Positions 35,113-45,834 of a DNA stretch of 64,000 bases are shown piece by piece. This stretch comes from Parcubacteria group bacterium ADurb.Bin192 (lineage in GTDB: Bacteria > Patescibacteriota > Patescibacteriia > 2-12-FULL-60-25): assembly GCA_002070095.1 (NCBI GenBank), contig MWCR01000001.1:1-64000 (forward strand). Reading direction: 5' to 3'. Every line of letters starts with the position of its first letter. The stretch's first letter is position 1. A model generated the notes under the pieces. It worked only from the letters and a program-made list of their open reading frames with translations. It did no database searches and was not told the origin of the DNA. Both the position numbers and the translations under genes were made by a program.

Positions 35113-36543
35113 TTAGTCTTTTATTTTTTTAACAATTCCGTGGTCAGCATCAACCTCCACTCTATTCCCGTCTTTTAGGGATCTAGAAGCATTTTTTGTG
35201 CCGATGACACAAGGGATGTTTAATTCTCTGGAAACAATGGCCGCGTGACAGGTTATACCGCCCTCGTCCGTAATTATCGCAGCCGCTTTTTTCATGATAG
35301 GTAGAAATTCAGGGCGAGTCATGGACGTCACCAAGATATCACCTGATTCAAACTTATCAAAATCCTTCAGACTTAGCACTACTTTAACTATACCCGACGC
35401 CAAACCATGGCAGGCCGAGTTGCCTTTTAAAACATCATTATCGTCTGCGGCAACATGGGTAGCTTTGTCCATCTTATCCCAAGCTTGATCCGGGTCATCA
35501 AACTCAAACACCGGCCCCTGCGCATCAAAATAAACCACGCATTTCATTCTTTTTTTCAGTTCTTGTTCAAAATCATCCGCCATAAACTTACCGTCCGACC
35601 AATCAGAATAAATTGTATAAGGCGCTAATTCCAAAGCTATGGCACGGCGGCGGCACAACTCTTTAGAAGTGCCGGCTATCAATATTAAAATCATTTGCAA
35701 AGATGTTTTTCTGACATCCCTGACTTCCATGGCGAACTGCGTAAATGCGAATAGATTCTTCAATTTACCATCAAGCCGCGAGGCATATTCCAGGACGATT
35801 TTTTTATTCTCAGCAACTTCCGCCTCTACTTTGGCTATATAATTTTTAAGACCGTCCACTCCGCCTAAATCATCAACCCTGGACTGCGTTAAGGACTCAA
35901 TCTCCTCATCAGACAAGGAAAAGTAGTAATCAGTATATGTCCAAGCTATGCGCGAGATGTCACGATCAGCCACATAGTCCAAAATACACCTGTCCTGCCT
36001 TAACAAAAAAGATTCAAAAGCGGGCTTGGCAGCCATGAATAAAAATTCTTCAAATTCACCCTCATCACCACCGGCCTCGGTATACAAATCCTTAACCAAA
36101 TCCTCATAAACCGCCTCGGAAAAAATCGTGGAACTCAACAGAGAGAAAAACTTCTGATAATAAATGTCGATATCTGATACCAATCTATTTTGTTCAACGT
36201 TATTTAAATCGAGTCTACCATTTTTGTTATAAAGATCCTCGATTTCTCGTTCGACTGTTCTATAATCTTTAACCTCCTGCAATGATTCGATGTCTCCATT
36301 TTGAAGCTTATTGTAAGTCTCTTTGGCAGTCCTGACATATGAGGCCATGTTAAAAAATAAGGTGCCGTGATGAGGCTTACAGATGAATAGAAACGCTCCA
36401 AAATTAAAATCATAGTACCTGGTAAAATAAGGCGCGTAACACTCCGGCAACAAACTGAAATACAAAGCCAAAGAAAAGTTACCCTCTTGCTTGGTTATAT
36501 CTTCGGGCTTGATGCCCTGTAAATACCTGTCGACATTGCTCAT
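35113..36543 (-). CDS. Orphan PEP-swivel (phosphohistidine mobile domain) protein 6
   Basis: 476 residues, last gene of the cluster. The C-terminal domain (about 370-476) is the PEP-utilising mobile domain of PEP synthase/PPDK/rifampin phosphotransferase, with TSMTRPEFLPIMKKAAAI, the phospho-accepting His in DEGGITCHAAIVSREL (around 433) and PCVIGT. The middle (about 240-340) is a helical domain with MEVRDVRKTSLQMILILIAG, like the region between ATP-grasp and swivel domains in rifampin phosphotransferase. The N-terminal 230 residues are unfamiliar. No ATP-grasp domain exists, so phosphate must arrive in trans or from another donor. Its start overlaps the stop of the preceding paralog by four bases (ATGA). 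Confidence 0.85.
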   Translation of the reverse strand: MSNVDRYLQGIKPEDITKQEGNFSLALYFSLLPECYAPYFTRYYDFNFGAFLFICKPHHGTLFFNMASYVRTAKETYNKLQNGDIESLQEVKDYRTVEREIEDLYNKNGRLDLNNVEQNRLVSDIDIYYQKFFSLLSSTIFSEAVYEDLVKDLYTEAGGDEGEFEEFLFMAAKPAFESFLLRQDRCILDYVADRDISRIAWTYTDYYFSLSDEEIESLTQSRVDDLGGVDGLKNYIAKVEAEVAENKKIVLEYASRLDGKLKNLFAFTQFAMEVRDVRKTSLQMILILIAGTSKELCRRRAIALELAPYTIYSDWSDGKFMADDFEQELKKRMKCVVYFDAQGPVFEFDDPDQAWDKMDKATHVAADDNDVLKGNSACHGLASGIVKVVLSLKDFDKFESGDILVTSMTRPEFLPIMKKAAAIITDEGGITCHAAIVSRELNIPCVIGTKNASRSLKDGNRVEVDADHGIVKKIKD

Positions 36544-37982
36544 ATTTTTCTGACTATACCATGATTGGCATTAACCTCAACCATGTCGCCGTCTTTAAAA
36601 ATTTGAGTCGCGATTTTGGTACCAATGACACAAGGTTTGCCCAGCTCGCGAGACACGATGGCCGCGTGGCAGGTGATCCCGCCGTCATCAGTCACAATAG
36701 CTGAAGCCAATTTCATATAAGGCACATGTTCCGGCCTGGTCATGGGAATGACCAACACATCACCTTTTTCAACCTTTTTAGCATCTTCGTTGGACACCAC
36801 GACCTTAACTCTGCCATAAGACTTGCCTAAGCTGGCCGCAAAACCACGTGCTTCGGTTAAACCTTCATCCAATAATTGGACACTCTGCTCCCGAAAAGCT
36901 TTAGCCTGCTCGCCGCAAATAGATTCAACGATTTTACCGCTTTGATATAAACGCAAAAAAGGCTGCGTGCGACGCTGTTGTAAAAGATTCAGGTCAACAT
37001 GGCCATCCACGGCTTCGATCAGCTCTTCATGACTCGTAAAGACCAAATCCCGGTAAGGCAAGTTTGTTCGGCGGGCGATTTCCGTGACATATTTGGTCAT
37101 AAGACCGATGTAAGTCAGGGTCACGGCCTTGCGGTCGTCCTGCCATTTGGTAAAAATTTCCGTCAGCCTGACCAAAAGCATTATCTCTGATGAAAATTCA
37201 TACTTTTCCAACAATGCCTGTTTAGCTTTTTTGTTTTCCATTGGCACATCCTTACAAACAAGCCTGTTGCCATCAATCAACTCTTTAATTTTTTGCCGAA
37301 TAACCTCCAACGAGTATTCACTCAAGCCGCTGTAATTGGAATTAATGAACCAATACTTTTTTTGATGATCTTTGAGCGCCTCTGATAGATCCTCACCTTG
37401 CAACTGACGATTAGCCAAGGCCATTAAAGCGTTTTCTTCCTCGTTTAAGAACGAATCATTAACCGGGGCCGACATGATACTGAACAAAACATTGGCGTTT
37501 TCCTTAGTTTGATGCTCTTTTTGGTAAGCTGATAACAATGCCTGCAGTTTTTTATCCGCGTAAAACATATACGCATCAAAAAACGGGGGAAAGCCCATCT
37601 CACTCAAAAATCTATCCATTAAATCCTGCAAACCGGTTTTGATTTCCTGATTGCTCAAAGCTGAAAAATCCTTATCCCTGTCCAGTTCACATTTTTTCAT
37701 GACTCTTTCATAACGGTCTTTCCACTCCGAATAGTTTTGAGCGAATAGTCCAGAATCCTCCTGTTCCGACTCAATCAAAGACAAGGCAATACGCTCGATA
37801 TCGCTTTTTTGCGTCATCCAATCAGCCTGACCGCTTTCCATGTAACAACAGGTGAATTCATAACAAGGGAATCTGTTTTCATATGATATGGAAAAGGCTC
37901 TGGCCGGCATTTCAATGTAAATTGGATTGGCGTCAAGATGCTCAAGGTTAAATTGACGCCCTTTAATATCTTTTATGTTCAT
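36540..37982 (-). CDS. Orphan PEP-swivel protein 5
   Basis: 480 residues. The swivel domain reads PMTRPEHVPYMKLASAIVTDDGG and the catalytic His is in DDGGITCHAAIVSRELGK (around 439), with PCVIGTKIATQIFKDGD after it. The helical middle domain has WQDDRKAVTLTYIGLMTKYV followed by REL-like NLPYRDLVFTSHEELIEA, matching the dehydrating region of rifampin-phosphotransferase-type proteins. The N-terminal third shares only weak similarity with its paralogs. It overlaps both neighbours by four bases and must be translated with them. Confidence 0.85.
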   Translation of the reverse strand: MNIKDIKGRQFNLEHLDANPIYIEMPARAFSISYENRFPCYEFTCCYMESGQADWMTQKSDIERIALSLIESEQEDSGLFAQNYSEWKDRYERVMKKCELDRDKDFSALSNQEIKTGLQDLMDRFLSEMGFPPFFDAYMFYADKKLQALLSAYQKEHQTKENANVLFSIMSAPVNDSFLNEEENALMALANRQLQGEDLSEALKDHQKKYWFINSNYSGLSEYSLEVIRQKIKELIDGNRLVCKDVPMENKKAKQALLEKYEFSSEIMLLVRLTEIFTKWQDDRKAVTLTYIGLMTKYVTEIARRTNLPYRDLVFTSHEELIEAVDGHVDLNLLQQRRTQPFLRLYQSGKIVESICGEQAKAFREQSVQLLDEGLTEARGFAASLGKSYGRVKVVVSNEDAKKVEKGDVLVIPMTRPEHVPYMKLASAIVTDDGGITCHAAIVSRELGKPCVIGTKIATQIFKDGDMVEVNANHGIVRKI

Positions 37983-39424
37983 AATTTAATTACGGTTCCA
38001 TGATTAGCATTAACCTCCACCCTATCTCCGTCTTTAATAGCTTTGGTAGCCACTTGAGTTCCGATGATACACGGAATACCTAATTCGCGAGACACGATGG
38101 CCGCGTGGCAGGTTATACCACCTTCGTCGGTAATGATAGCAGAGGCCAGCTTCATGATAGGTAAATATTCTGGGCGTGTCATGGACGCGACCAAGACATC
38201 GTCCTTTTGCATCTTATTGAAATCATCCTGACTCAAGATGACACTCGCCGTACCTATGGCCTTGCCTGGACTGGCGATATTGCCTCTAATTTCGGTCTTC
38301 TGCAGCCCTGCCTCAATCTTACGATAAACCTCCATAACCTGTTCACCAGTTACAAATTCCAAACTATCATTTTCAGAGTATGACAAACAGCCAAACCGAG
38401 CTCGCTTTTCCAGCTCTTGAGTCAATCCCTTATTATCCAATAGTTTAGGCAACTCTTCCGCGTGAGCCCATAAAACCGTTTTTAAATCAAAACCTCTTTC
38501 TTTGGCTACATACTGAGCCGCTACAGTTAAATAATAGCTACTGATATTGTTGTATTTCTTCCTATCATCTCTAAGATTGGTGAAAAGATTCAATAATTCC
38601 AACTTAGACTTAACATCTTGACCAAGATTTAATGACTCAATAAGAGCAACCTTATTTTGAACCAATTCAGAGGTTTTGGCGATTGATTGCCTGGCTTCGT
38701 CTGCTAAAAATTGATTGGCCAGCCAAGTATCCAACACACCACGAAAATAGGACTTATCGAGATAAACCACTTTTTCGTAATCATTCTTGATCCAATAATA
38801 GTTTTCAACGTGCTGCTGTAATTTTTCTTCGACCTCCGTGTTTTGAGATCCTTTAGCTTTGGCTAAATCATAAATTTGCAGCATATCAGCCTGCTCTTTT
38901 TGTAAATTTGATGGATCCTTAGGGCTCAAAAGTAAGTTTATATCTTTCTTACTCAGAGAATTGACCTTATCACCAAAAATATGCGCTATCACCATCTCTT
39001 CAACGGGATCCAACAAGTCAACAAACAATGAATTCTCCCAAAACTGATAATTCTGTTCTAAAAATTCAGCATAAATCTTTTTAAAGGTTGCATTATCCCC
39101 GTTGATCCCGACCAACTTGGCGCCCACAGTCTCCATTGTCCTGCCAGCCTTATAGAACTTATCTGACAGCTGATAAAAATACTGCAAATCCTTATCCATG
39201 GTATTAACTATTTTTTCAGCCTGTAACAAGTTTAAGTCATAATCAAAATAATGCCCCATGATGGTTCTTGAATCCTCATTAACCACTATCAAAATATCGT
39301 TGGGAAAAACAAAACCGGAAGCTTTTTCCATACGGCTTTTTATACAAAGCCATGGCATGCTAATAGTTAACATGTTGGTAGCACATGATTGCTTATACCA
39401 ATTTATATTTTCGTACTTAAACAT
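37979..39424 (-). CDS. Orphan PEP-swivel protein 4
   Basis: 481 residues. Swivel motif TRPEYLPIMKLASAIITDEGGITCHAAIVSREL broken here into its parts: TRPEYLPIMKLASA and GGITCHAAIVSREL with His near 440, followed by PCIIGTQVATK. The middle helical domain contains LRDDRKKYNNISSYYLTVAAQYV and LKTVLWAHAEELPKLL. Most similar by eye to the 40181 paralog (shared QVATK, EIRGNIASPGKAIG/EIRGSSASLGKAIG and the KKDINLLLS/LKPRDLTVL region). It follows the HD gene by two bases. Confidence 0.85.
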   Translation of the reverse strand: MFKYENINWYKQSCATNMLTISMPWLCIKSRMEKASGFVFPNDILIVVNEDSRTIMGHYFDYDLNLLQAEKIVNTMDKDLQYFYQLSDKFYKAGRTMETVGAKLVGINGDNATFKKIYAEFLEQNYQFWENSLFVDLLDPVEEMVIAHIFGDKVNSLSKKDINLLLSPKDPSNLQKEQADMLQIYDLAKAKGSQNTEVEEKLQQHVENYYWIKNDYEKVVYLDKSYFRGVLDTWLANQFLADEARQSIAKTSELVQNKVALIESLNLGQDVKSKLELLNLFTNLRDDRKKYNNISSYYLTVAAQYVAKERGFDLKTVLWAHAEELPKLLDNKGLTQELEKRARFGCLSYSENDSLEFVTGEQVMEVYRKIEAGLQKTEIRGNIASPGKAIGTASVILSQDDFNKMQKDDVLVASMTRPEYLPIMKLASAIITDEGGITCHAAIVSRELGIPCIIGTQVATKAIKDGDRVEVNANHGTVIKL

Positions 39425-39426
39425 AT

Positions 39427-40032
39427 TTATAAAGATATTTTATTCAGATTTTCCTCCGCTTTTTTTCTAACCTCCGGAAAAATAAAATTATCCAACAATC
39501 GGCTTAATTCTTTTAAGATTTCATCCATGTCATACATGCCCGAATCAACCATGCTTCGCAAACGTTTTTCCGTGTACCTGTCCAAGGCATCCAAATCGTG
39601 AAAAACTTTTTTGTTCTGCGTTTCATACCACGATTTCCAGTCTTCAATCTTTAATTGATCGGTATCGTGCATAGCGATTATCTCCACGATTTCTTTAGCT
39701 TTTTCCGAATCATAACCAATTTTATGCAATAAATCATGGGCTATTTTGGCACCGGCCAGCATATGTACCAGCTTGCCGTTAACCAACTTGTTTTGACCTG
39801 TAATGTATTTGAAATGCTCAGGCAGAATCGCGGAATGACCAATATCATGCAGCATGGCCACCGGAATTAAGACGTCAGCGTCAAATTCAAGACGTCCCCG
39901 GTAATCGAGCACCAGCTTAACGGTTTCGGCCGCATGCTCATCATCTCCGGGGCGGCCCAGTTTTAATAATGGCAGACATTCCGCCCATAATGTTTGATAT
40001 TTTTCCGGTAGATTTTCTATGGTCATACTCAT
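39427..40032 (-). CDS. HD-superfamily phosphohydrolase
   Basis: 201 residues. The metal-binding series is complete: His in DDEHAAETV, the HD pair in VAMLHDIGHSA, His in HMLAGAKIAHDLL, His/Asp in IIAMHDTDQL and Asp in HDLDALDRY. HD proteins of this kind hydrolyse phosphate mono- or diesters, often nucleotides; the substrate is unknown. The gene lies within the PEP-swivel cluster, 148 bases after paralog 3 and two bases before paralog 4, so it is part of the same transcript. Start is ATG 40032 or 40026. Confidence 0.85.
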   Translation of the reverse strand: MSMTIENLPEKYQTLWAECLPLLKLGRPGDDEHAAETVKLVLDYRGRLEFDADVLIPVAMLHDIGHSAILPEHFKYITGQNKLVNGKLVHMLAGAKIAHDLLHKIGYDSEKAKEIVEIIAMHDTDQLKIEDWKSWYETQNKKVFHDLDALDRYTEKRLRSMVDSGMYDMDEILKELSRLLDNFIFPEVRKKAEENLNKISL

Positions 40033-40067
40033 TTAATTACGAATTAAAATTACGAATTTCACGCTTT

Positions 40068-40148
40068 GTCATTTCGAGTGTTAATCGAGAAATCCCTTTT
40101 CTGTGCGTTTAATGACTTGAGGGATCTCTCCACCTTGGTCGAGATGAC
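40068..40148. repeat. GTCATTTCGAG hairpin element, copy 1
   Basis: 81 bases bounded by GTCATTTCGAG and TCGAGATGAC inverted ends. The 45 bases after it (to about 40188) also match the sequence after copy 3 at 41844-41886, so spacer and element were duplicated with a PEP-swivel gene. Confidence 0.85.
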
Positions 40149-40180
40149 AGAAGGTGAATGATCAAGCTGACAAAAAAAAT

Positions 40181-41629
40181 TCATAATTTTATAATTCTGC
40201 TGTGATTAGCGTCTACTTCCACCATGTCCCCGTCTTTTAAGATTTTGGTGGCCACCTGTGTACCGATGATGCAGGGCACGCCCAGCTCGCGCGATACAAT
40301 GGCCGCGTGGCAAGTCAACCCTCCCTCATCCGTGATAACGGCCGCGGCTTTCTTCATAATAGGGACGTATTCGGGCCGGGTCATGGACGCCACCAAAACA
40401 TCGCCCGGCATAAATTTATCAAAGTCGGCCTGGTTCAAAATCACTCGAACCGGCCCAATGGCTTTACCCAAGCTGGCGGACGAACCCCTGATTTCGGACG
40501 AAGCGACCCGCTGTTCGAGAGCTTCGTAATATTCCCTGATGGACGGGCCGGAAATGATCTCCTGATGGTCATTTTCATTGACATGGAACAAAACTCCGAT
40601 ATCTTGTCTGATTTGGATTGCTGATTTGACCTTCTCATCACCGCACAACAACGGCAGAAGTTCCATAGGCAAGGCGTATTGCATCCAGCTCATATCCAAG
40701 CCCATAGCCGTGGCCACCTTCTCCCCCGCGCCGTACATGTAATAATTGGTGATTTGCGCCAAACGCTTACGCTCATCGCGGAAAGAGGCCATCCAGTTGA
40801 AGAAATCCAATTTCCCTTTGATCGCATCCCCCAAACCCAGTTTAGATAATAGCGCTGCTTTTTCCTTCTGGGCTTCATCGAAGCGCGCCAGGCCGGTCTC
40901 GATATCTTTAATCATGCCGGGGTCAGCAAGCATCGTCTCCAGCTGTACCATGTAATGTTCCACGCCTAAATACTCTACCCTTTCAAAATCGTTCTTGAGC
41001 CAATGATACTTAACTGCATGCTCATGAACCAAGCGATCCACCGCCTTTAGCCCATCCTTGGCCGCCACTTTGTATATGGCCAGCAGATCCTTTTGTTGTC
41101 TTTGGACATACGAGAGTTCATCGGGCATGGTCAAAACAGTCAGATCCCGTGGTTTGAGACTGTCGGCCCGGTCTCCAAAAATAAAGCTGAATATTTTCTT
41201 TTCAAAAGGATCAAGTATATCCAAAAACAAAGACGATCCCCATCCTTTAACCGCGGTTCGAATGAAAAGTTCATAGTCAGCCTTGAATTCAGGGGACCCT
41301 ACCCGCTCTTCGAGCATCCTCCGCCCCACAGCTTCTGCCGTAAACGCAGTTTCTGATAATTGAGAGTACAAACCACGGAACCAATTCTTATCTCCATCTA
41401 CCTTGTGCAGTATCGAATCCGCCTCCTTCTCCACCAACGCATAATCAAGGTAGTTATAGAAGGAAAAAGCATCGCCTGTCTTGATTATCAGGCCGACCAA
41501 GGGCATCCTAAACCCCGAGTACTCATGCATGCGCGGCACGCCCATGTGCACCAAGCCACCGATGAGGGGTATTCCCGCACCGGACTGCCTATACCATTTG
41601 CTGTGTTTGATTTGTTCCTTGGTTAACAT
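40181..41629 (-). CDS. Orphan PEP-swivel protein 3
   Basis: 482 residues. Swivel domain with SMTRPEYVPIMKKAAAV, GGLTCHAAIVSRELGV (His near 441) and PCIIGTQVATKILKDGD. Middle helical domain ASFRDERKRLAQITNYYMYGAGEKVATAM. The first 60 residues (LIGGLVHMGVPRMHEYSGF) differ from the paralogs, so the N-terminal part may recognise a different partner or ligand. It is flanked on both sides by spacers carrying the same GTCATTTCGAG element, strong evidence for tandem gene duplication. Confidence 0.85.
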   Translation of the reverse strand: MLTKEQIKHSKWYRQSGAGIPLIGGLVHMGVPRMHEYSGFRMPLVGLIIKTGDAFSFYNYLDYALVEKEADSILHKVDGDKNWFRGLYSQLSETAFTAEAVGRRMLEERVGSPEFKADYELFIRTAVKGWGSSLFLDILDPFEKKIFSFIFGDRADSLKPRDLTVLTMPDELSYVQRQQKDLLAIYKVAAKDGLKAVDRLVHEHAVKYHWLKNDFERVEYLGVEHYMVQLETMLADPGMIKDIETGLARFDEAQKEKAALLSKLGLGDAIKGKLDFFNWMASFRDERKRLAQITNYYMYGAGEKVATAMGLDMSWMQYALPMELLPLLCGDEKVKSAIQIRQDIGVLFHVNENDHQEIISGPSIREYYEALEQRVASSEIRGSSASLGKAIGPVRVILNQADFDKFMPGDVLVASMTRPEYVPIMKKAAAVITDEGGLTCHAAIVSRELGVPCIIGTQVATKILKDGDMVEVDANHSRIIKL

Positions 41630-41671
41630 ATCTAATCAATTACGAATTACGAATTAAAAATTACGATCTTT

Positions 41672-41749
41672 GTCATTTCGAGTGCTAATCGAGAAGTTCC
41701 TTTCGGGGCTATCGGGCTTAAGGGATCTCTCCACCTTGGTCGAGATGAC
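41672..41749. repeat. GTCATTTCGAG hairpin element, copy 2
   Basis: 78 bases, same inverted ends as copy 1 with a diverged centre (TTTCGGGGCTATCGGGC). Confidence 0.8.
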
Positions 41750-41763
41750 AATACCCCCCTTCT

Positions 41764-41844
41764 GTCATTTCGAGCGATAGTCGAGAAATCCCTTTTCTGT
41801 GCGTTTAATGACTTGAGGGATCTCTCCACCTTGGTCGAGATGAC
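41764..41844. repeat. GTCATTTCGAG hairpin element, copy 3
   Basis: 81 bases, almost identical to copy 1 including the central TTTTCTGTGCGTTTAATGAC block. Confidence 0.85.
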
Positions 41845-41885
41845 AGAAGGTGGATGATCGAACTGACAAACGAAATTCATAATTT

Positions 41886-43421
41886 TTATTTTTTATTTTT
41901 TATTTTTAATTTGTTCACTCTCCCTCGGTCAGCATCAACCTCCACCATATCTCCGTCCTTCAAAACTTTAGTGGCTATCCGGGTTCCGATGACGCAAGGG
42001 ATCTGCAGTTCACGCGCCACGATGGAGGCGTGCGAAGTTATGCCTCCCATATCAGTCACAATGGCGCCCGCCTTTTTCATGGCCAGAATCAAATCAGGAT
42101 TGGTGGCGTTTGAGACCAAAACTTCACCCGCCTGCAGTTTGCCAACATCTTCTGCCACTAAAATTATTTTGGCTATTGCTCTGACCAAGCCCGGATAAGC
42201 GGTAGAACCGCGCAATTCCTGATCCGGTTCTTCCGCCTCATCCGCAGGCATGTATTCTTCCATCATGGCCTGGCCTTCAGGGCCCGTGTAAATCTTAATT
42301 TGACCGTCTTCGACCAAATAACAACACTCCACCAGGCGATCCTTGGCTTGCTTGGCAAAATAATCACGTTTGCCCTTCAACAAAGCCTCTTCCACCTCTT
42401 CCAAAAATAAAAACTTTAATTCATCCAAAGAAATTCGCAGTCTGCGGCTGATTTCTGCCAAGACCTTATCCATGATTACGTATGATTGCTGATAAATGCC
42501 TTTACGGTAATCCTTAAGATGCATAAAACCGGCCGATACATTTAGCAGGCGGACTAAATCTTGTGACAATTCCAAAGATTTAATCAGCTTGGCTTTTTCT
42601 TGAGCCAAATTAGCGTATTTATTCAATAAACATTGGTATTGCTCGTCCAAATCGCCGCGCTCAAGAGTGTCTTGGCAGACGGATAGTAAATGTTCTAAAG
42701 ACATGACCGGTCCGATATAAGCATAAGTTAACCATTCAAATCTTTGTCTGTGCTTTTCCAGTAACTCCATAGCCTGAATATTCTTGCGCAAAGCGGAAAT
42801 ATCACGCTTTTTAATGGCCAGAAAAATCTCTTCATGTTCGGCCAATTGTTTTAAGTCTAATAACATCTTAAGGCGCGCGATTTCCTCCTGTTGCACTTCG
42901 CTGGGCTTATCAGCCGAGCTTAAAAACGAGTAGATCTCATTTAAGCGCTCCACCTGCCCCAACTCTGTTAATCGTATCTTTAAGCCTTGCGTCACATAAT
43001 CCGTAATATACGGCTGATCAAAACCATCTACAAACACCGGTACCCAGCCCCAAACCCTCATAACTCTCAGTAATTTAAGATATTCTCGATATATATCAAT
43101 TAAATCTTGGTCTGACTTGTGCGTTACATCCATGGCTTTGACCGAATCGCAAAAACTTAAAAGCCGCCCGCCATGGTCTTCGATCTTGGCAAACACCTGG
43201 TCCACAAAATCTTTTTCCCTAACCACCCGGTCAAACAAGCTCCGGCAAAGAAGCTTATAAGAATCATCATAAGCCATAACAAATCTCGCTTTCTTGATAG
43301 AACAAAAAACCCGTTCCACCGGCTTAACGCCCAAATCAGCGATATCACGCGTGGCCACGATATCCATCAAATATATGGGATACAGATAAATACGATCGCG
43401 CTCAAATATTTTTTTCAGCAT
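41886..43421 (-). CDS. Orphan PEP-swivel protein 2, diverged
   Basis: 511 residues, one base after the regulator. The swivel domain has NATNPDLILAMKKAGAIVTDMGG, catalytic His retained in MGGITSHASIVARELQI (around 464) with Ser replacing the usual Cys, PCVIGTRIATKVLKDGD, and a Lys-rich tail. The middle domain reads FMHLKDYRKGIYQQSYVIMDKVLAEI, so the DxR motif persists as KDYRK. The N-terminal region starts MLKKIFERDRIYLYPIYLMD. It is the most divergent of the His-bearing paralogs and the first enzyme-like gene after the regulator. Confidence 0.83.
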   Translation of the reverse strand: MLKKIFERDRIYLYPIYLMDIVATRDIADLGVKPVERVFCSIKKARFVMAYDDSYKLLCRSLFDRVVREKDFVDQVFAKIEDHGGRLLSFCDSVKAMDVTHKSDQDLIDIYREYLKLLRVMRVWGWVPVFVDGFDQPYITDYVTQGLKIRLTELGQVERLNEIYSFLSSADKPSEVQQEEIARLKMLLDLKQLAEHEEIFLAIKKRDISALRKNIQAMELLEKHRQRFEWLTYAYIGPVMSLEHLLSVCQDTLERGDLDEQYQCLLNKYANLAQEKAKLIKSLELSQDLVRLLNVSAGFMHLKDYRKGIYQQSYVIMDKVLAEISRRLRISLDELKFLFLEEVEEALLKGKRDYFAKQAKDRLVECCYLVEDGQIKIYTGPEGQAMMEEYMPADEAEEPDQELRGSTAYPGLVRAIAKIILVAEDVGKLQAGEVLVSNATNPDLILAMKKAGAIVTDMGGITSHASIVARELQIPCVIGTRIATKVLKDGDMVEVDADRGRVNKLKIKNKK

Positions 43422-43422
43422 A

Positions 43423-45078
43423 TTACTTTAAAACACGTACCGTGCGGTGATTAGCGCGCACTTCAATCATATTGCCCTCCTGTATGCCGGTTAAAGCCTC
43501 TTTAACCCCGGTTACACAAGGTGTTTCATGGTTACGCACCTGTTGTTCCACGGACGGCGATAATTTATCCTGAACCAGAATAATGGCTCCGGCCTTATCC
43601 AAAACCAAGGGCAAAAATACATCCTGCGCCAAAACAGCCACTTCACCTTTTTTCAATGAATACGCGTCGTTTTGCGACTTGATAATTCTGGCCAGGCCGC
43701 GCGCGAAACCGCGGGCCACCAAATTGCCATACAAAGTCAGCGGAGCTTCGCCTGAAATACGAGCTTCCAGTTCAGACCTGATAGCATCAGCTTCTTCGCC
43801 CACAGCCAGAGTGTAATCCAATCCTCTAACCTCAATCAGCAAACCCTGATCATGGCGTTCTTTTAATATTTCCGCGCTAACCAGGCCTTTGAGCGCACCT
43901 TCAAACTCTTCATAGCTCAAATATTGCAGATATTCTTTGGACAAACCCGTCTTGTTTCCCATGGCCGCGATGATCTGATCCATCACATACACGCCCATTA
44001 AAATGGCGTGCTTTTTAGCTTCTCTCCAAAAAGCCACTCGGTTAAAAAACCACAATGGATTTTGAGGCAGATTGTATTTACGACAAACATCCTTTATTCT
44101 TTTTTTCTGTTCTTTAGAATATGAGGCCAAACGCTCGTATTGAGAGTTAAAAAATTGTTTATTGGCCAAATAATTTTCTACTTCGCGCGCCAAATCAGCA
44201 TCTTCAATAGGCTTGTGCCCGGCATAATCCATTTCTCCATAATAAAACTCCCGTCTGAAGGCTTGATAACCCGGATCATGTTTAACAAAATCCAGGGCGT
44301 CAAACTTGCGTTTGTCTCTGTACGGCAACAATAAAGTCAATAAAGCCAAACGACGCTCCTCATCATAAGTTAATTCTTCAGGTGCCAACAAAACCAAAAC
44401 ATCAGACTGGCTGATTTTATATTTGTCGGTCAGACGTTTAATCTCACGGTGATCAAAACCCGCGTAATAAGCTTCTGAAAAATAACAATAGCCGTACATT
44501 CTTTGGCATGAGTTATATATCTGATTAAAATAGTCAGTCAGTTCGGTGTTGGACATCTTATTCAAAGCATCCAAATCCACGGTGCTGTAAAATTTTTCAA
44601 CGTCGCGCATAGACCTCTCAAACACGCGATATAATCGTTCAAAATGCAAAGGATTGCTGTATCTTTCGTAAACTTCTTGGGCGATTGTATTCATGCGGTT
44701 AACATCCCAATAAACATAGGCTTGTTTATCCCGAATGTAGGTGTACATGACGCCAAAAGTGGCATTGAAATATTCTTTGGGAAATTTATTGGAACTCATC
44801 AAAATGGGCCAGATATAATAAGGAACGGCTTTGGTCTGTTGGGAATAAATGGCCGCCGGCATTTGGTCAGCCGCGCCTTCTGCCACGTATTCCACCAAAT
44901 CCTGAATTTTTAAATCATAGACACCGCACAATTTGTCCAAGGTGGCGAACTTTAAACCATCCACCTTGTTATGCATCAAAGCATTGATGGTATTGCGGTT
45001 AATTTCAGCTTCACGCGCGATTTCCGAGCTGTTTTTGCCTAATCTACGCGCAATTTCGTTTAATTTTAGTTTGATCAT
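43423..45078 (-). CDS. HTH regulator fused to a degenerate PEP-swivel domain (paralog 1)
   Basis: 551 residues from ATG 45078 (an upstream TTG 45108 falls inside the operator). Residues 1-60 are a Cro/CI-type helix-turn-helix: LNEIARRLGKNSSEIAREAEINRNTINALM followed by LDKLCGVYDLKIQDLVEY, split here only for length. The rest is a full paralog of the swivel proteins, but the catalytic block reads VQDKLSPSVEQQVRNHETPC: the T-D-x-G-G-I-T-C-H core and its His are lost while PCVTGVKEALTG and VRANH survive. It probably senses something through the enzyme-like domain and represses the operon, including itself, through the palindrome at its transcription start. Confidence 0.82.
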   Translation of the reverse strand: MIKLKLNEIARRLGKNSSEIAREAEINRNTINALMHNKVDGLKFATLDKLCGVYDLKIQDLVEYVAEGAADQMPAAIYSQQTKAVPYYIWPILMSSNKFPKEYFNATFGVMYTYIRDKQAYVYWDVNRMNTIAQEVYERYSNPLHFERLYRVFERSMRDVEKFYSTVDLDALNKMSNTELTDYFNQIYNSCQRMYGYCYFSEAYYAGFDHREIKRLTDKYKISQSDVLVLLAPEELTYDEERRLALLTLLLPYRDKRKFDALDFVKHDPGYQAFRREFYYGEMDYAGHKPIEDADLAREVENYLANKQFFNSQYERLASYSKEQKKRIKDVCRKYNLPQNPLWFFNRVAFWREAKKHAILMGVYVMDQIIAAMGNKTGLSKEYLQYLSYEEFEGALKGLVSAEILKERHDQGLLIEVRGLDYTLAVGEEADAIRSELEARISGEAPLTLYGNLVARGFARGLARIIKSQNDAYSLKKGEVAVLAQDVFLPLVLDKAGAIILVQDKLSPSVEQQVRNHETPCVTGVKEALTGIQEGNMIEVRANHRTVRVLK

Positions 45079-45085
45079 ATTATTT

Positions 45086-45111
45086 AAATTGACTACTTTA
45101 CTAGTCAATTT
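45086..45111. promoter_or_regulatory. Operator palindrome at the regulator's transcription start
   Basis: AAATTGACTA (45086-45095) and TAGTCAATTT (45102-45111), a perfect 10-base inverted repeat with a 6-base gap, lies directly downstream of the -10. A weaker relative, TGACTA (45153-45158) and AGTCA (45170-45174), lies before the divergent SixA-like promoter. The palindrome is the natural binding site for the HTH product. Confidence 0.75.
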
Positions 45112-45116
45112 TTATT

Positions 45117-45145
45117 ATAATAGACTATTTTAGGCCTTTTGTCAA
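45117..45145 (-). promoter_or_regulatory. Promoter of the PEP-swivel operon
   Basis: Minus strand TTGACA (45145-45140), 17-base spacer, TATTAT (45122-45117). The predicted start near 45110 puts the operator at +1 to +26. Confidence 0.8.
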
Positions 45146-45177
45146 TCAAACATGACTAGTATGCTATGCAGTCACTC

Positions 45178-45206
45178 TTGACGGTTGGCAAGATTCGTGA
45201 TATATT
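45178..45206 (+). promoter_or_regulatory. Promoter of the SixA-like gene
   Basis: TTGACG (45178-45183), 17-base spacer, TATATT (45201-45206); leader of about 75 bases ending in GGAGG (45274-45278). Confidence 0.75.
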
Positions 45207-45285
45207 AATGCGTCACACTGGAAGTACCGAAGACAACACGAACTTTCCCAACAACGGGCAACAGCCCACCACCGGAGGATTCAGA

Positions 45286-45834
45286 ATGAAGAAGTCATAC
45301 ACGATCGAAGTCCGTCGCCACGCGCTCAAGGGAACCGGAAGCCAGAAGGACATGCTCTCCCCCGAGGGGTACGAGCAGGCCCGCCAGGTCGGCAGGGACA
45401 ACATGCGGGACAAGGGGTTTACGCACATCGCGGTCTCGCCGTATTTCAGAACGGCCCAGACCGCAGCCGCCATGGCCGAAGGAGCCGGCGACTTCACCGC
45501 CGCCACGTTCACCGTCTCCCCCGCGCTCTTCACCGGGCGTCTGGACGAGTGGATGGTTTACCACAAGGAACACGGCGCCGTGGTCAAGCCAGAAAGCGAC
45601 TTGATCGAGGAAGAAGCAGGCCGCATGGCCAACGACCTCAAGGACTTGGTCAGCTCTCTGCCCGAAGGGTCGCATCTGCTCTGCGTTGGGCACACGCCGT
45701 TCGTCGAGACGCTCATCTACGGCCTGACCGGGGAGGTGATCGATCCCTTGGCCGAATGTGAGGGAGTGGAAATCGAAGCCGAAATCGACTCCGAAACCTT
45801 CTTCGCGAAGCACGTCCACGAACTACGCCTCTAG
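45286..45834 (+). CDS. SixA-like histidine phosphatase
   Basis: 182 residues from ATG 45286, fixed by GGAGG eight bases upstream; longer readings would include the promoter and leader. Phosphohistidine intermediate in VRRHALKG (R-H motif), second Arg in SPYFRTAQTAAAMA, and the second His in LCVGHTPFVETLIYGL: the branch-1 histidine-phosphatase fold, in the size range of SixA. SixA of E. coli removes phosphate from phosphohistidine proteins; other family members act on small phosphoesters. Its divergent position next to six phosphohistidine-domain paralogs makes a protein-phosphohistidine substrate attractive but unproven. GC-rich and SD-led. Confidence 0.85.
   Translation: MKKSYTIEVRRHALKGTGSQKDMLSPEGYEQARQVGRDNMRDKGFTHIAVSPYFRTAQTAAAMAEGAGDFTAATFTVSPALFTGRLDEWMVYHKEHGAVVKPESDLIEEEAGRMANDLKDLVSSLPEGSHLLCVGHTPFVETLIYGLTGEVIDPLAECEGVEIEAEIDSETFFAKHVHELRL

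Follow-up and report, generated by a model that had tools for sequence, protein, structure and literature searches.

A candidate auto-regulator derived from an RPH-like dikinase subunit, and its conserved putative operator, in Patescibacteria

The window analysed here, a 64,000-nucleotide stretch of a contig from Parcubacteria group bacterium ADurb.Bin192, an uncultured organism with a genome of 1.44 Mb (G000), carries on its minus strand a gene encoding a 551-residue protein that combines an HTH, a helical domain resembling the substrate-binding domain of rifampin phosphotransferase (RPH), and a degenerate swivel domain (43426..45078, within an open reading frame at 43423-45108). The ATG at 45078 is the likely start, and an upstream TTG would add ten codons. 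The DNA-binding segment occupies approximately residues 1-67 (44878..45078, minus strand), the helical domain, referred to here as RD, approximately residues 76-440, and the swivel residues 447-551 (43426..43740, minus strand). Pfam assigns residues 5-67 to the Cro/C1-type family HTH_26 (9.4e-12, 45.5 bits against a cut-off of 22), and in the predicted model of the protein (mean pLDDT 89.5, pTM 0.74) the HTH matches CylR2 over 66 residues (Z 11.5, rmsd 1.7) and the swivel matches that of RPH over 106 residues (Z 16.6, rmsd 2.1). The helical domain matches the substrate-binding region of RPH over 317 residues (Z 11.0, rmsd 5.5), a score within the reach of chance for bundles of helices when taken by itself, but a sequence profile of the HTH-fused family described below finds RPH over its substrate-binding and His domains at 8.7e-29. 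Neither of the domains by which a PEP synthase or PPDK would be recognized, PPDK_N and the PEP-binding TIM barrel, is reported in the protein by Pfam. The open reading frame, the HTH_26 match, and the swivel fold bear out the first-pass annotation, which had described an HTH joined to a swivel paralog, and the predicted model gives the HTH segment a DNA-binding fold.

Downstream of the regulator gene, on the same strand, lie five RD-swivel paralogs with intact catalytic blocks, at 41886..43421 (TDMGGITSH), 40181..41629 (TDEGGLTCH), 37979..39424 (TDEGGITCH), 36540..37982 (TDDGGITCH), and 35113..36543 (TDEGGITCH), together with a gene for an HD-domain protein at 39427..40032. RD-swivel paralogs are found downstream of the regulator in its relatives as well. 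A similar HD-domain protein of ~200 residues occurs among RD-swivel genes both in the window (39427-40032) and in one relative (G747, L174:2702-3304), and it may therefore belong to the same system. The gaps at 40033-40190 and 41630-41886 are occupied by a dispersed repeat, with two 124-nt copies that are 94% alike and a 34-nt unit, CTTGAGGGATCTCTCCACCTTGGTCGAGATGACA, present three times. No convincing terminator or minus-strand promoter was found in these long gaps, and since they are filled with repeats, co-transcription of all seven genes is best regarded as putative. In the opposite direction, a putative histidine phosphatase gene (PF00300) is encoded on the plus strand at 45286..45834, its ATG at 45286 preceded by GGAGGA. 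The protein belongs to the PF00300 superfamily and falls far below the cut-off of the SixA equivalog model (TIGR00249, 14.2 bits against 74.5). The GC content across this gene (45250-45834) is ~62%, against ~40% in the surroundings of the regulator start, a contrast suggestive of a separate origin or constraint.

Further proteins were recovered in which the same HTH is fused to an RD-swivel subunit. These comprise a same-genus ortholog that is 38% identical to the window protein and has the same divergent phosphatase gene (G005, L034, a Patescibacteria MAG) and nine further members from whole-genome searches (G381, G747, G274, G286, G849, G857, G840, G886, and G870), giving, with the window, eleven HTH-fused members in five Patescibacteria families. 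Pfam reports HTH_26 in all of them (1e-8 to 1e-15). In a tree of 98 RD-swivel proteins, built by a quick search with the fused proteins trimmed of their first 72 residues, and with several long end branches, the eleven form one clade with support of 100, so that the fusion most simply happened once. Viral contigs yielded no relative, matches among phage and plasmid records cover <80% of the query, those that are annotated being PEP-synthase-like, and a search for defence systems gave no convincing match.

The swivel domain of the window regulator has lost its catalytic block. Alignment with the paralogs places AGAIILVQDKLSPSVEQ opposite AAAIITDEGGITCHAAI, with LVQDKLSPSVE standing where the paralogs have TDEGGITCHAA, and neither the TxxGG nor the Cys nor the His survives, as the first-pass annotation had claimed. 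The PEP-utilizers model of Pfam, on which the five downstream paralogs score 1e-23 to 1e-26, gives no match here. The HpeH motif T/SxxGGxxxH, in which a change of the His abolishes activity (H581Q is inactive; PMC12167813), is likewise absent from the window regulator (LVQDKLSPS) and present in the five paralogs and in six HTH-fused relatives. The same annotation had described a dead swivel, and as a defining feature of the family this had to be abandoned, as the block is intact in six of the nine members with a testable swivel (G381, G274, G849, G857, G886, and G870), in the form TN(E/A)GGxxCH; the nine exclude G286, which lacks a swivel, and G747, which is cut by a contig end. The same-genus ortholog G005 keeps the His and has lost TDEGG (EDENPLNH), and the His is lost in the window regulator and G840. 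Loss of the full block is limited to one subclade, consisting of the window protein, G005, and G840 (support 97), and to the swivel-less G286. In the latter genome, the gene after the swivel-less HTH protein (L112:8325-9332) encodes a degenerate swivel, LDEGSYYGAA, with the His replaced by Gly, as if the regulator had been split into two chains. Between the window protein and its G005 ortholog, identity is 73% in the HTH, 33% in RD, and 36% in the swivel, whereas in diverged pairs with intact swivels it is 64-86% in the swivel against 28-38% in RD. That the swivel of the window branch diverges about as fast as RD while the HTH does not indicates that catalytic constraint was lost in this branch and DNA-binding constraint was kept. 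The C-terminal motif VRANH(R/G/A)T, present in the window protein as EVRANHRTVRVL, is exclusive to HTH-fused members and survives in the degenerate swivels too, which, from sequence comparison, suggests a regulator-specific role for this domain.

The retention of the catalytic block in most members raises the question of whether phosphorylation gates the regulator, with the swivel His charged by an ATP-grasp partner to switch DNA binding and reset by the neighboring histidine phosphatase, and with the window protein as a derived branch acting through phosphorylated paralogs, for instance in hetero-oligomers. Two-component RPH-like dikinases divide the work between an ATP-grasp subunit, HpeI, and a substrate-binding and swivel subunit, HpeH (PMC12167813). 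In G381, G870, and G886, the genes close behind the regulator include some for proteins with an ATP-grasp-type, PEP synthase-like N-terminus, PPDK_N being confirmed in G381 and recognized by eye in the other two, and the genome of the window has a swivel-less PPDK_N gene ~93 kb away (G000:C1:138288-139223), 3 bp from an RD-swivel gene. The ATP-grasp (PPDK_N) partner expected of an HpeH-type subunit is therefore present in the genome as a putative one. The split RPH-like dikinase pair to which this gene belongs (G000:C1:136851-139223, L113:6852-9224) could serve the kinase-less paralogs of the window. Other arrangements were observed among the relatives: in G005 (L178:2724-9202), a PPDK_N-like gene is followed by about five RD-swivel genes, so that many substrate subunits may share a single kinase domain, and in G381 (L110:4549-7641), a 1030-residue protein with one PPDK_N and two swivels, an unusual dikinase architecture, adjoins the regulator. 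A putative histidine phosphatase is divergently encoded in six of the eleven members (G000, G005, G381, G747, G840, and G870); some of the six are weak in Pfam and one is unreported, but none departs from the typical R-H, R, and H residues. In G886 (L189:166-4361), the gene run that holds the regulator continues downstream with two RD-swivel genes that have a phosphatase-like gene on either side. These two phosphatase-like proteins are 28% identical and were recognized by reading the sequence, Pfam reporting nothing. The intact blocks, the greater conservation of these swivels compared with RD, and the phosphatase and kinase neighbors all fit a phosphorylation gate, but the window protein, having neither the His nor the TxxGG loop, cannot be phosphorylated there, and several members have no phosphatase neighbor. 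We consider such a gate unlikely, albeit deserving of more weight than the other alternatives discussed below. As most relatives keep the block, however, pure ligand sensing is not the family-wide mode. A tentative and somewhat broader proposal would be that Patescibacteria possess one-component regulators in which a shared ATP-grasp kinase charges the His of an active swivel, an adjoining phosphatase resets it, and the swivel controls DNA binding by the fused HTH, with the window branch, its His lost, acting as a ligand-only or partner-sensing repressor. We would not yet favor it, but if true, it would constitute a direct switch from ATP through phospho-His to a promoter, outside two-component and PTS systems.

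The reading that we prefer, a local auto-regulator that takes its signal through a ligand of RD, draws on the region between the regulator and phosphatase genes. A predicted sigma-70 promoter for the regulator operon (45117..45145, minus strand) consists of TTGACA at 45145-45140 and TATTAT at 45122-45117, separated by 17 bp, which would place +1 at ~45110. At this position lies O1 (45086..45111), a perfect 26-bp palindrome, AAATTGACTA-ctttac-TAGTCAATTT, with arms matching at 10 of 10 positions. A weaker site, O2 (45153..45170), reads TGACTAGTATGCTATGCA on the plus strand, with two mismatches, and TGCATA-N6-TAGTCA on the minus strand. It lies 7 bp from the -35 box of each of the two divergent promoters, that of the phosphatase gene (45178..45206, plus strand; TTGACG-17-TATATT, with TG before the -10) having its -35 at 45178. 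Both a perfect 10-base inverted repeat at the transcription start and a weaker copy before the divergent promoter had been proposed in the first-pass annotation, and both stand, with the start and the promoters as predictions. When the 300 bp upstream were shuffled 2000 times with their dinucleotides preserved, an exact TGACTA-N6-TAGTCA never arose. Across the 1.44-Mb genome, only O1 and O2 exceed a reversed-pattern control, which makes the regulator look local; no genome-wide regulon was found, all other sites in the genome having three mismatches and being no more common than in the control.

The site is also conserved among the relatives, from exact to recognizable, near nine of the eleven HTH-fused genes, so that the first-pass annotation withstands its own check of conservation at orthologs. 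The core TGACTA-N6-TAGTCA is exact in four (the window, G005, G381, and G747), has one mismatch in G286 and G870, two in G857 (as a perfect palindrome, TTAACTA-N6-TAGTTAA) and in G840 (TGACTAGTAAACTATGCA, the form of O2 in the window), and three in G886, where one half is intact. The remaining two, G274 and G849, share a different palindrome, TTTTTGTAAT-N6-ATTACAAAAA, which counts against the reading of a local auto-regulator bound to one conserved site. In G005, O1 (ATGACTAGCTAACTAGTCAT) occupies the same place after the -10 as in the window and O2 (TGCATAGTTAACTAGTCA) lies at the same distance of 7 bp from TTGACA, so that both sites are conserved in register although the proteins share only 38% identity. 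Four relatives (G381, G747, G870, and G857) have the site 4-6 bp upstream of the -35, roughly where O2 stands in the window and beyond the predicted transcript of the gene. Bacteria usually encode several XRE proteins, and the site could in principle be owned by another XRE regulator, with the fused protein binding elsewhere. In the 880,474 bases of loci examined, however, every exact core match adjoins an HTH-fused gene, as do all one-mismatch matches except at one locus that was chosen by the pattern search itself, and within the genome of the window the site is confined to this place. Furthermore, the two members with the changed palindrome, G274 and G849, also have changed HTH residues, KADGVWF and KAEGVWF, respectively, in place of the KVDGIKF of the other members. 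Ownership by another regulator is accordingly improbable. Even less credence can be given to the idea that the window protein is a decaying, functionless paralog with an HTH kept by chance: a degenerate catalytic block and a swivel evolving as fast as the rest would be expected of such a protein, but the 551-codon frame is intact, the HTH is far more similar than RD to that of the G005 ortholog (73% against 33%), the C-terminal EVRANH(R/G)T is conserved even where the swivel is degenerate, and O1 and O2 are held in register. Finally, the palindrome begins at the predicted +1 in the window and G005 and would fold in RNA, but a 5'-terminal RNA hairpin, rather than a protein-binding DNA site, was rejected as scarcely credible, given that four relatives carry this sequence upstream of the -35, that there is no Rfam match, and that O2 is conserved too.

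We therefore return to the local auto-regulator. In this model, a Cro/CI-like HTH would have been fused once to the substrate-binding and swivel subunit of an RPH-like (HpeH-like) two-component dikinase, and the product, a dimeric XRE-type regulator, would bind TGACTA-N6-TAGTCA at O1, at the +1 of its own operon, and at O2, between the divergent promoters. It would most likely repress its own operon of dikinase subunits and may also influence the promoter of the histidine phosphatase gene, which shares O2. With the near-consensus -35 and -10 of the operon promoter and O1 placed at +1, repression fits better than activation, but a position 4-6 bp upstream of the -35, as in four relatives, is also used by activators, and the sign of regulation may differ among members or be wrong. 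The signal is most likely a small molecule bound in the RPH-like helical domain, presumably the one that the paralogs phosphorylate, as the loss of catalysis in the window branch leaves the RPH-like pocket as its most likely point of entry. The swivel was perhaps phosphorylatable in the ancestor, with the window branch having lost catalysis while keeping the HTH and the operator. That this is an enzyme-derived regulator with a conserved operator is supported by the RPH-like scaffold, the HTH, and the operator itself, and the suggestion of an enzyme turned regulator in the first-pass annotation is upheld to that extent, whereas the sensing of the ligand or phosphorylation state of its paralogs, proposed there too, is a candidate function; dimerization, DNA binding, repression, and the ligand we infer. 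For the reading as a whole, with binding to O1 and O2, probable repression of the operon, and a signal through RD, we estimate a probability of roughly 60%.

To our knowledge, gene regulation in Patescibacteria has been little studied experimentally. Here, a regulator emerges from comparison alone, along with a likely operator and the genes that it likely controls, which makes the system testable in vitro. The family also displays stages in the passage from enzyme subunit to regulator, from an intact swivel, through members that keep the His and have lost the loop and members that have lost the His, to one in which the swivel is gone. The findings also offer a route to the substrates of the many RPH-like dikinase subunits in these genomes, as a compound that lifts the regulator off its operator may be the one on which they act. 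In the literature searched, we found no HTH-fused PEP-utilizers regulator, nothing on this family in Patescibacteria, and no regulator in which an HTH is joined to the phospho-carrier domain of an RPH-like dikinase subunit.

Among known systems, the closest counterparts are the HpeH-type subunits of HpeHI, CreHI, and PpsAB (PMC12167813), which likewise consist of a substrate-binding helical domain and a C-terminal swivel with the ATP-grasp subunit encoded apart, and the window paralogs, taken together with the PPDK_N gene at G000:C1:138288-139223, show the split layout of HpeH and HpeI. Unlike the window regulator, HpeH is described without an HTH and needs the His that the regulator lacks (PMC12167813). 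RPH itself (5fbs, 5hv1) is matched by profile and predicted fold over the substrate-binding and His domains, but its ATP-grasp domain is part of the same chain, its His is intact, and it lacks an HTH. The putative phosphatase resembles SixA, which is known to remove phosphate from a phospho-His carrier (PMC7948535), in being a small protein encoded beside genes for phospho-His carriers; this makes its position suggestive, although, as noted, it scores below the SixA model cut-off. One-component XRE or HTH_26 repressors such as CylR2 and SaPI2 Stl share the HTH fold and a palindrome in their own promoter, but in the window protein the effector part is an RPH-like subunit of ~480 residues. Regulators derived from enzymes are already known, BirA and PutA being listed among trigger enzymes and enzyme-derived regulators (PMC6978683, PMC6391492). 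As in BirA and PutA, a metabolic enzyme scaffold is combined with DNA binding and with feedback on the genes of its own pathway, both deduced in our case. A trigger enzyme keeps its catalytic residues, whereas the window regulator has neither the His nor the loop, and it differs from BirA and PutA in the enzyme scaffold from which it is built.
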